A stretch of 64,000 nt of DNA from Gammaproteobacteria bacterium (GTDB taxonomy: Bacteria; Pseudomonadota; Gammaproteobacteria; Pseudomonadales; Moraxellaceae): the NCBI GenBank assembly GCA_028868515.1, contig JAGWUI010000002.1, forward strand, positions 62,001-126,000. Reading direction: 5' to 3'. Made by a program: the position numbers and the translations under genes. Below are positions 18,696 to 22,647 of this stretch, piece by piece. Each line of letters opens with the position of its first letter. Position 1 is the stretch's first letter. The notes beneath the pieces were generated by a model. That model was not told the DNA's origin. It ran no database searches and worked only from the letters and a program-made list of their open reading frames with translations.

Positions 18696-19601
18696 TTAAC
18701 TGCTCACTTTTGCATTACTAATTGTAGCAACAGGCACAGTTGTTGGAGCGGCTTTTTGTTTGACTGGATTTACCACAAAATTAATGCCAAGCAATAATAA
18801 TGTGATGCCTAATACTCGGCGAATAAGATGCTCTGGAAGTTTAGAGCTAATTAATGTTCCGACAATAATTGCTGGAATCGCGCCGATGAGCAAGAACGTC
18901 AACATGTGAAAATCAACATTTCCTGAAAACAAATGTCCAAGACCCGCAACTAATGTCAATAAAACAGCATGAACAACGTCTGAACCAATAATTCGAATCA
19001 TCGGTAAGTTTGGAAATAATAAAACCAAAGCCATCACGCCAAATGCACCAGCACCGACAGAAGACAAGGTCACAAATACACCTAAAACGACGCCCATAAA
19101 AATGACTAAAGGTTTATTTTTCAATAGCTCTTTAGCTTGATTGCTTTGTGCATTTGTGCTGCCTTCGTGTAAATGATGACGTGCTTCAGTTGTCATCCCA
19201 CGACGTTTAGCAAAGAATTGTTCAATCCGCGCACGAAACAGAATTGAAACGCCAGTCAATACCAGCATAAAACCCAGTACGATAGTGAGTAGTTTTTTAT
19301 ATTGGTTGGCATCGCTGAAGAAATGATGCAGTGCCCAAGTTGTGCCCAGTGACGCTGGAATACTGCCAATCGACAGAAAAATAACGATTGGCCAAACGAT
19401 GTTCAGTTTTTTTGCATGAACGAGGGAACCACAGAACTTGGAAATTGAGGCATAGAGCAAGTCTGTACCAATTGCGACTTGTGGTGGAATGCCCATGATG
19501 CTGATGAGGATCGGCGTCATCAAAGAGCCGCCGCCAACACCTGTCACACCAACACAAAGCCCAACGACCAGCCCAGCAAGAATAAAATAATAATCAGTCA
19601 T
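18696..19601 (-). CDS. TauE/SafE-family sulfite/anion exporter
   Basis: A polytopic inner-membrane protein of about 301 residues with eight or so hydrophobic segments. The family's two GGG-type motifs are recognisable: GLCVGVTGVGGGSLMTP near the N-terminus and SSVGAGAFGVMALVLLFP in the second half. The family moves sulfite, sulfoacetate or other organosulfur anions. A cytoplasmic basic loop (RARIEQFFAKRRGMTTEARH) separates the halves. I prefer ATG 19601 (MTDYYFILAGL), which starts just before the first membrane helix; ATGs at 19616 and 19652 also exist. It is divergent from lpxB. Substrate not determinable. Confidence 0.85.
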   Translation of the reverse strand: MTDYYFILAGLVVGLCVGVTGVGGGSLMTPILISIMGIPPQVAIGTDLLYASISKFCGSLVHAKKLNIVWPIVIFLSIGSIPASLGTTWALHHFFSDANQYKKLLTIVLGFMLVLTGVSILFRARIEQFFAKRRGMTTEARHHLHEGSTNAQSNQAKELLKNKPLVIFMGVVLGVFVTLSSVGAGAFGVMALVLLFPNLPMIRIIGSDVVHAVLLTLVAGLGHLFSGNVDFHMLTFLLIGAIPAIIVGTLISSKLPEHLIRRVLGITLLLLGINFVVNPVKQKAAPTTVPVATISNAKVSS

Positions 19602-21741: not shown

Positions 21742-22647
21742 GTGCGTAACATTATTATCTTATTCAGTTTAGTTATATTTTTTGTGATTTATCACAAGGG
21801 ACACCAGCAAATTCGCAATGACCTATCGAAGCCACCTGCTGAACGAGAAGTTTATTATCGTATTGGCACAATCGATCCTCGTTTTAATTTAAGTGAGAGT
21901 GAGGCGAGGAGTTTGGTTCTTGAAGCTGCAAAAGTTTGGGAAGAGCCTTTAGGACATCAGTTCTTTTTTTATCATCCTAAGGCCGCGTTTACGATTAATT
22001 TTATTTACGATCAACGTCAACAAACTACGAATGAAAGACAGCAAGCTGAGCGTGTATTAAACGATAATCAAGGTCGGAATCAGAGTGCAACAGATAATTT
22101 TCAACAGAAGCAATCAGAGCTTACGGATGAATATCGTCGACATAATGACGAACTGGCGGCATTGAATGAACGAATTAGCCAGCATCAGCAAATGGTTGCG
22201 CTAATCAATGCGCGTGGTGGTGCAACGCCAATGGAAAGACAATCTATGCAAATGGAAAGTGATCAGCTTGATCGCGATGTTGCCGAATTTAATCAGAAAG
22301 GTACAAATCTTGATGTGGAGCAGGTTAATTTAAGGCATCAGGGCGAGGTTATTCAGACGCAAGTAGATGATTATAATCAGAAAGCAAAAGACTATAATCA
22401 GAAGTTTGTGGGGCATCCTTTTGAGGCTGGACTCTATAAAGGTGATGCAATTAATATTTATGAATATGGCGATAAAGATGAGTTGCGTTTAATTCTAGCG
22501 CATGAGCTTGGGCATTCGTTGGGTTTGAAGCATTCCAGAGATCCGCATGCGCTGATGTATCCTACGATGGGGGAACAGGATTTAGCGAATTTCAAACTGA
22601 CACAGGCGGATATTGATTTGTTGTATGGACGAGCGAATCCGTATTGA
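21742..22647 (+). CDS. exported matrixin-like zinc metalloprotease with coiled-coil insert
   Basis: A 301-residue protein starting at GTG 21742 (GGAAGA about 8 nt upstream). Residues 3-20 form a signal anchor (IIILFSLVIFFVIYH). An N-terminal strand region (YYRIGTIDPRFNLSESEA) resembles the first part of M10/M12-type catalytic domains. It is followed by about 130 residues of Gln/Asn/Glu-rich predicted coiled coil (roughly 90-220). Then comes the zinc site AHELGHSLGLKH (HExxHxxGxxH) and a Met-turn HALMYPTM, as in matrixins. The insertion of a long coiled coil between the N-terminal strand and the zinc helix is unusual. It is probably membrane-tethered, facing the periplasm. Substrate unknown. 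Confidence 0.78.
   Translation: MRNIIILFSLVIFFVIYHKGHQQIRNDLSKPPAEREVYYRIGTIDPRFNLSESEARSLVLEAAKVWEEPLGHQFFFYHPKAAFTINFIYDQRQQTTNERQQAERVLNDNQGRNQSATDNFQQKQSELTDEYRRHNDELAALNERISQHQQMVALINARGGATPMERQSMQMESDQLDRDVAEFNQKGTNLDVEQVNLRHQGEVIQTQVDDYNQKAKDYNQKFVGHPFEAGLYKGDAINIYEYGDKDELRLILAHELGHSLGLKHSRDPHALMYPTMGEQDLANFKLTQADIDLLYGRANPY

Follow-up and report, generated by a model that had tools for sequence, protein, structure and literature searches.

What kind of protease combines a matrixin zinc motif with a long coiled coil set inside its own sequence, and what could such an insertion do? The question is raised by a gene of a Moraxellaceae genome. The gene lies in the 64,000-nucleotide stretch of DNA analyzed here, called the window below. 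The open reading frame occupies positions 21742-22647 of the forward strand, starts with GTG and encodes 301 residues; a TGA is the second codon upstream of the start. It is located after lpxB-rnhB and before lon, which is on the other strand (names partly assigned by eye). The first-pass annotation had described a gene adjoining lpxB-rnhB without a partner, and no obvious partner is indeed seen beside it in the window. Between positions 19600 and 23000 of the window, no sigma-70-like promoter match was found, as compared to a mean of 8.5 (sd 2.7) in shuffled sequences. The features of the gene, given below, were assigned from the sequence, from an AlphaFold2 model of the protein and from the alignment of 32 family members (named A2) with which this model was built.

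21742-22647, + strand: whole open reading frame, 301 residues, stop included; matrixin with an inserted helical hairpin (Pfam match and model)
21745-21798, + strand: N-terminal hydrophobic helix, residues 2-19, putative signal anchor, topology inferred (DSSP of the model, hydrophobicity; no cleavage-site-like motif by eye)
21850-21873, + strand: first strand, residues 37-44, YRIGxxD motif; D45 is invariant in the 32 A2 rows (alignment and model)
21895-21951, + strand: domain helix A, residues 52-70; W66 is nearly invariant (alignment and model)
21991-22002, + strand: strand 84-87, leading into YDxRQ; D90, R92 and Q93 are nearly invariant (alignment and model)
22012-22212, + strand: hairpin arm 1, helix of residues 91-157, 67 residues (model; heptad-like periodicity in the family profile)
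22213-22227, + strand: hairpin tip, residues 158-162 (model)
22228-22404, + strand: hairpin arm 2, helix of residues 163-221, 59 residues (model; heptad-like periodicity in the family profile)
22429-22458, + strand: short strands 230-232 and 236-239 ahead of the zinc helix (model)
22501-22533, + strand: zinc-binding motif HELGHSLGLKH, residues 254-264 (sequence and family alignment)
22555-22557, + strand: Met-turn methionine 272 (sequence; kept in 110 of 111 distinct frames)
22603-22623, + strand: C-terminal helix, residues 288-294 (model)

The protein matches PF00413 (Matrixin, Peptidase_M10) from residue 35 to residue 292, with an E-value of 2.5e-14 and 53.9 bits for a gathering score of 24. 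The HMM search that had been proposed as a check therefore places it above the cut-off of the matrixin family. The same model matches all 32 aligned A2 members at E 0.001 or better. PF12388 (Peptidase_M57) also passes its cut-off (22.6 bits for 21), over residues 140-265 that are mostly coil, and matches 2 of the 32 A2 members. No NCBIfam model reached its cut-off with the window protein.

The AlphaFold2 model has a mean pLDDT of 94.9 and a pTM of 0.80. From the N- to the C-terminus, it shows helix 2-19, strand 37-44, helix 52-70, strands 75-77 and 84-87, helices 91-157 and 163-221, strands 230-232 and 236-239, the zinc helix 245-259 and helix 288-294. On its own, Foldseek matched this model to no PDB or viral entry at E 0.001 or better, the best PDB match being MMP8 (E 2.4e-3). 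The fold likeness to MMPs comes from VIA-align, a second look at the Foldseek matches. With this program, MMPs align over 130-138 residues with Z of 13.0-13.7 (best 50 rows), and MMP12 (6ela_A) aligns with Z 13.7 over 135 residues (rmsd 3.2). The window protein is predicted to have a matrixin/metzincin catalytic fold, and the structure prediction called for by the first-pass annotation contains this fold around the zinc motif.

Sequence comparison with MMPs locates the insertion. The best PDB sequence matches of the window protein are MMP7 and MMP8, across the zinc helix and Met-turn region. When the family profile is aligned with an MMP8 chain, profile positions 42-100 correspond to MMP8 13-68 and positions 252-303 to MMP8 110-161. 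The first of these blocks is weak alone (11.2 bits, i-Evalue 1.5) and agrees with the model. Since the two blocks flank it, the insert lies between two MMP8-aligned regions. In MMPs, the stretch between the blocks comprises the S-loop plus two strands. The S-loop of animal MMPs is short, joins two strands of the sheet, carries metal sites and lies at the rim of the cleft. In the model of the window protein, the space between the two blocks is filled by the hairpin, two short strands and loops.

Animal MMPs (MMP12, MMP8, MMP7; PF00413) thus share with the window protein the HExxHxxGxxH motif, the Met-turn and the catalytic fold. Animal-type MMPs (M10A) have structural zinc and calcium sites and a propeptide with a cysteine switch. 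In contrast, the window protein has no propeptide, no cysteine, a predicted bacterial membrane anchor and, in the model, a 131-residue helical hairpin in place of the S-loop. The absence of a propeptide with a cysteine switch follows from the lack of any cysteine together with the 17 residues that, in the model, separate helix 2-19 from the first strand at residue 37. Serralysins (M10B) carry C-terminal RTX calcium repeats; the window protein ends at residue 301, shortly past helix 288-294, and has no such repeats. Karilysin from Tannerella forsythia (4r3v, 8b2q) has the bacterial matrixin fold in common with the window protein (VIA-align with 4r3v: Z 13.1, 132 residues aligned, rmsd 3.0). However, with 166-179 residues its chains are too short to include the hairpin, and karilysin has a propeptide (4r3v title).

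The catalytic residues are strongly conserved. The HExxHxxGxxH motif and the Met-turn noted on first inspection are HELGHSLGLKH at 254-264 and Met272, and the motif arises in only 1 of 20,000 shuffles of the window protein. The A2 rows come from the window or from related loci and were picked with a pattern requiring the zinc motif, so that the invariance of the motif in A2 is partly by construction; A2 leaves out L069, L087, a number of close relatives and all six loci with a variant glycine, which the pattern failed to pick up wherever it was applied to them. We therefore also used a set built with no motif filter, from frames of at least 150 residues in 110 loci with a profile E of 1e-10. 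Of the resulting 111 distinct frames, from 109 loci, 110 retain H254, E255, H258, H264 and M272. The remaining one (L160), 223 residues long, does not cover the zinc-motif and Met-turn positions. G261 is kept in 104 of the 111 frames. At six loci (L006, L053, L056, L066, L074, L151), Ser, Asp, Arg or Glu is found at the glycine of the motif; these hairpin members retain all three histidines, the glutamate and the methionine. A dead protease was considered and ruled out on the basis of the 110 frames in which the three histidines, the glutamate and the methionine are kept. These residues make peptidase activity probable.

The insert itself spans residues 91-221, that is 131 residues according to the model and the alignment, in agreement with the roughly 130 residues first noticed between the early strands and the zinc helix. 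Following strand 84-87, it is predicted to form an antiparallel helical hairpin with a bend at residues 158-162. pLDDT blocks are at 96-98 across residues 91-220. From 59-67 residues at 1.5 Å each, the arm is about 90-100 Å long. A homologue from Patescibacteria, 27% identical, is also predicted with two long helices (83-149 and 155-214; pLDDT 93.9), and its model aligns with MMP12 (5i2z_D) with Z 15.1; the same 32 sequences underlie both predictions.

The composition of the insert varies. Gln plus Asn account for 27% of its residues as against 7% in the rest of the window protein, as the description of a Gln/Asn-rich segment had it. As a family trait, this description does not hold: the mean Q/N fraction of the insert is 0.33 in the 18 Moraxellaceae rows and 0.17 in the 14 other rows. 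The insert is Q/N-rich in Moraxellaceae and more charged elsewhere. Between Moraxellaceae and other rows, the mean identity is 16% in the hairpin as compared to 37% in the catalytic part.

The length of the insert is much better kept. It is exactly 131 residues in 17 of the 32 A2 rows. In the set used for the tree described below, it is 131 in 51 of 85 rows and 130-132 in 72. In the unfiltered set, these numbers are 64 and 93 of 111 distinct frames, the 18 frames outside 130-132 ranging from 85 to 160. The longest-armed A2 row (L079) has 14 more residues in each arm (84 + 75 vs 70 + 61). In the alignment, arm 1 of another locus (L085) is 13 residues longer and its arm 2 is of unchanged length, and a third locus (L083) lacks 22 and 10 residues in arms 1 and 2. 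The near-constant arm length may follow simply from the need for insertions and deletions to match in both arms.

Family-averaged hydrophobicity (32 rows) repeats at 102-103 degrees, or about 3.5 residues, in both arms. For arms 1 and 2, 9 and 0 of 1000 shuffles, respectively, gave a periodicity as strong. Taken by itself, the window protein has no significant heptad signal (568 and 139 of 1000 shuffles). Conservation at the tip is no better than in the rest of the arm, with a commonest-residue fraction of 0.30-0.33 at positions 151-170, which speaks against one conserved docking partner. At the base of the hairpin, D90, R92 and Q93 are nearly invariant while the arm sequence drifts.

The distribution of hairpin matrixins is wide and patchy. 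The family is matched in 7 of 38 near relatives, in 3 of 4 genomes of the window genus, and in 160 of 348 Moraxellaceae genomes, belonging to 6 of 16 genera. The window genome has one match, and more than one was counted by hand in only 47 of the 160 matching genomes of the family. In one of the genomes (G015), two matches correspond to one gene. The locus of this genome (L007) contains a 668-residue open frame in which the family domain begins near residue 364; the part scanned upstream of it has no Pfam match. Tandem copies of hairpin matrixins are found in Acinetobacter. Outside the family, three genomes (G951, G952, G1349) contain two copies, located either on different contigs or some 1.5 Mb from each other.

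A search of genome contigs with the single window protein gave no match, and a profile scan of genome contigs gave at least 44 loci. Among the matches listed, loci beyond Moraxellaceae belong to Patescibacteria and its groups, Balneolaceae, Rhodohalobacter, Chitinophagaceae and Gemmatimonadetes; further ones, again among the matches listed, belong to Thioalkalivibrio, Holophaga, Sulfurimonas, Arsukibacterium and Phycisphaerales. Many of the loci outside Moraxellaceae are metagenome bins. One locus of the profile scan (L087) has a matrixin-like frame without hairpin. A second, hairpin-less matrixin-like frame is also present on a Patescibacteria contig (L053:885-1613, - strand).

Samples of genomes give the same picture. 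In the Patescibacteria phylum sample around a Yanofskybacteria genome, up to 30 of 286 genomes match, the centre genome being counted; 3 of these matches touch the coil only and 1 the first half only. Around Rhodohalobacter, 8 of the 198 genomes in the phylum sample match, centre genome counted. The order sample around the window genome has some match in 27 of 244 genomes, and most of the profile is spanned in 2 of the 244 (G000 and G013). Both near full-length matches belong to the family. In the phylum sample around the window genome, there is some match in 27 of 398 genomes and most of the profile is spanned in 2 of the 398 (G000 and G695). The remaining matches of the order and phylum samples are partial, mostly to the zinc motif or the coil.

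The phyletic survey that had been suggested thus extends from Moraxellaceae to Patescibacteria, Balneolota, Gemmatimonadota, Thioalkalivibrio and others. The window protein has the RIGxxDPRF-like strand, the YDxRQ motif, the hairpin of about 131 residues and the HExGH motif that characterize the subfamily. Because the same layout, mostly of near-equal length, is found in distant bacteria, we consider these proteins as an uncharacterised subfamily rather than a one-genome oddity. The layout had been called unusual for a bacterial M10 protease. It is indeed unusual for M10, but normal within a subfamily that is widespread.

Mobile elements were also considered. Seven viral-contig loci bear the C-terminal motif. 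Six of them (L035, L036, L037, L039, L040, L041) have 45-91 residues between two profile-matched blocks; three of the six share one sequence, and the block ends differ. In the seventh locus (L038), the motif alone matches. A phage origin was rejected, as the six viral-contig matrixins have no room for the hairpin and the seventh shows the motif only. Four plasmid records match, all from Acinetobacter; three of them exceed 3.6 Mb and are thus probably chromosomes.

A tree was built with a quick method from 85 rows and 142 columns, leaving out the hairpin, with a midpoint root for drawing. One of 86 candidate rows (L053_1, low score, hairpin-less) and the third copies of six Acinetobacter arrays were left out. 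The 47 Moraxellaceae rows form one group (SH-aLRT 94), which sits beside a Moraniibacteriota sequence (89). Both belong to a 64-row set (84, not starred) whose other members are mostly Patescibacteria. Parsons and Fournier (2025) describe a supported group of MMPs that unites CPR sequences with some from proteobacteria, and interpret it as the outcome of transfers from CPR (PMC12587646). This group joins the same two sets of organisms as the 85-row tree and may correspond to the hairpin matrixins. The words acinetobacter, moraxella, coiled and insertion have no mention in the main text of their article, which states that bacterial MMP function is short of experimental tests and that the cleavage targets are currently unknown (PMC12587646). 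Among the matches listed in our literature search, titles and abstract beginnings contain no description of the hairpin or of a function for hairpin-matrixin genes.

Among the known genes closest to that of the window are those named 'matrixin family metalloprotease' in Acinetobacter baumannii (L042). They have the same family assignment and layout as the window protein, and the best place is 34.2% identical over 90% of the query. Unlike the window gene, they form a tandem pair after grpE-dnaK, at another locus, with signal-peptide-like N-termini (by eye). No function for these genes was found in the literature searched.

Gene neighborhoods differ between groups. In the window genus, rnhB is upstream of the protease gene, about 50 bases apart, and lon is convergent. 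In one genome of this genus (G003), a sulfatase-like gene takes the place of the protease after rnhB; it codes for a 643-residue membrane protein (L167:4800-6731; both assigned by eye). In Acinetobacter, among the matches listed, dnaK is upstream in 19 of 20 loci, the 20th (L081) ending early, and a conserved, acidic open frame of about 125 residues is downstream in 20 of 20. A copy of this frame downstream of Acinetobacter protease copies is at L042:10043-10429. At L030, dnaK is present and the frame is absent. The frame shows no Pfam match, as scanned on a copy lacking a few codons, and reading by eye reveals no signal sequence. In the window, the gene that follows the protease is a different one. 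At four Moraxella-type loci (L048, L050, L056, L089), an oligoribonuclease-like frame is upstream in all four cases (by eye). Neighbors outside Moraxellaceae were read by eye on a selection. No partner gene common to the window genus, Acinetobacter, Moraxella-type and other lineages was seen (partly by eye), so that genomic context names no substrate.

The N-termini suggest where these proteins would act. Helix 2-19 of the window protein has no obvious cleavage site by eye, which makes the membrane tether put forward in the first-pass annotation plausible. In seven Acinetobacter arrays (L052, L054, L055, L057, L059, L067, L072), the N-terminus resembles an anchor in the first copy and a signal peptide in the later ones (by eye). 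In the A. baumannii pair, both copies are of the signal-peptide-like type by eye. These types were read by eye because a script rule, which gave 14 of 67 as signal-type, misfiles several. Of the 14 rows from outside Moraxellaceae, 12 carry a pair of cysteines, one just ahead of the first strand and the other near the C-terminus, and 2 carry neither. Judging from the sequences, a disulfide within this pair is likely. In Moraxellaceae, 17 of 18 rows have neither cysteine, and L048 has only the one near the first strand. The signal-peptide-like paralogues and the cysteine pair found outside Moraxellaceae point to an outside location, and hairpin matrixins are probably exported.

We propose, with a confidence slightly above even, that the window protein is an extracytoplasmic, membrane-held zinc endopeptidase of the metzincin fold, with no propeptide, in which a coiled-coil arm docking a protein partner takes the place of the S-loop. 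The N-terminal helix would remain uncleaved and anchor the protease to the inner membrane, on its outer side. As there is no propeptide, the protease is probably made active. The antiparallel coiled-coil hairpin would stand in for the MMP S-loop. Its arm may dock a partner, either a substrate, an inhibitor or another copy of the protease, and position it at the cleft. Periplasmic or outer-membrane proteins, already suggested as targets, are possible substrates.

Regulation and oligomerisation are close rivals of this docking arm. Less probably, the hairpin could be a regulatory arm, blocking or deforming the cleft and shifting in response to a signal, in place of the missing propeptide. The 17 residues between helix and first strand, the lack of cysteine and the insertion of the arm at the site of the S-loop, at the rim of the cleft, agree with such a role. 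However, the model of the hairpin gives two long helices at high confidence (pLDDT 96-98 over 91-220), and no strongly conserved patch is seen along the arm in ten-residue bins. It is a little less probable still that the hairpin serves dimerisation or oligomerisation, two protease copies being paired into a bundle. The family profile has coiled-coil periodicity in both arms, arm length is largely kept as the sequence drifts, and Acinetobacter has tandem copies, all of which would fit. On the other hand, a hairpin can satisfy its own core; the window genome has a single match and just 47 of 160 matching family genomes have several, which also counts against pairing, although it bears only on pairs of different copies.

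We regard as doubtful that the hairpin is a mere scaffold that replaces the metal-binding S-loop and stabilizes a small domain. Its position at the S-loop site and the nearly invariant D90, R92 and Q93 at its base, under an arm that drifts, are what one would expect of a scaffold, but a short loop would suffice, as in the six viral-contig matrixins with 45-91 residues between the blocks, and most members retain an arm of nearly full length. Finally, the first-pass view makes the coiled coil a spacer that takes the protease across the wall in the direction of the outer membrane, as an anchor helix followed by a 67-residue helix of about 100 Å might have suggested. This view is rejected on the predicted topology and has next to no likelihood: the hairpin is predicted to leave and re-enter the catalytic domain, both halves of which stay near the anchor. 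An arm inside this domain, which itself begins 17 residues past the membrane helix, could not move the active site away. The arm is moreover kept in signal-peptide-type paralogues of Acinetobacter (by eye) and, at the same length, in Patescibacteria, which are not known to have an outer membrane.

What can most safely be stated is that these proteins probably form an exported, catalytic subfamily of bacterial matrixins that has no propeptide and carries a coiled-coil arm for the S-loop. More tentatively, they could be a metzincin subfamily shared between Patescibacteria and Moraxellaceae, apparently by gene transfer, in which a coiled-coil arm of nearly fixed length, rather than an S-loop or a propeptide, selects or gates substrates, making them non-zymogen relatives of MMPs. 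Hairpin matrixins, which are present in Acinetobacter species such as A. baumannii and in part of the Patescibacteria, carry only the name matrixin where an annotation was seen. If the arm controls the choice of substrates, these proteins would represent metzincin control without a propeptide, and the arm would offer a handle on the cleavage targets of bacterial MMP-like enzymes.
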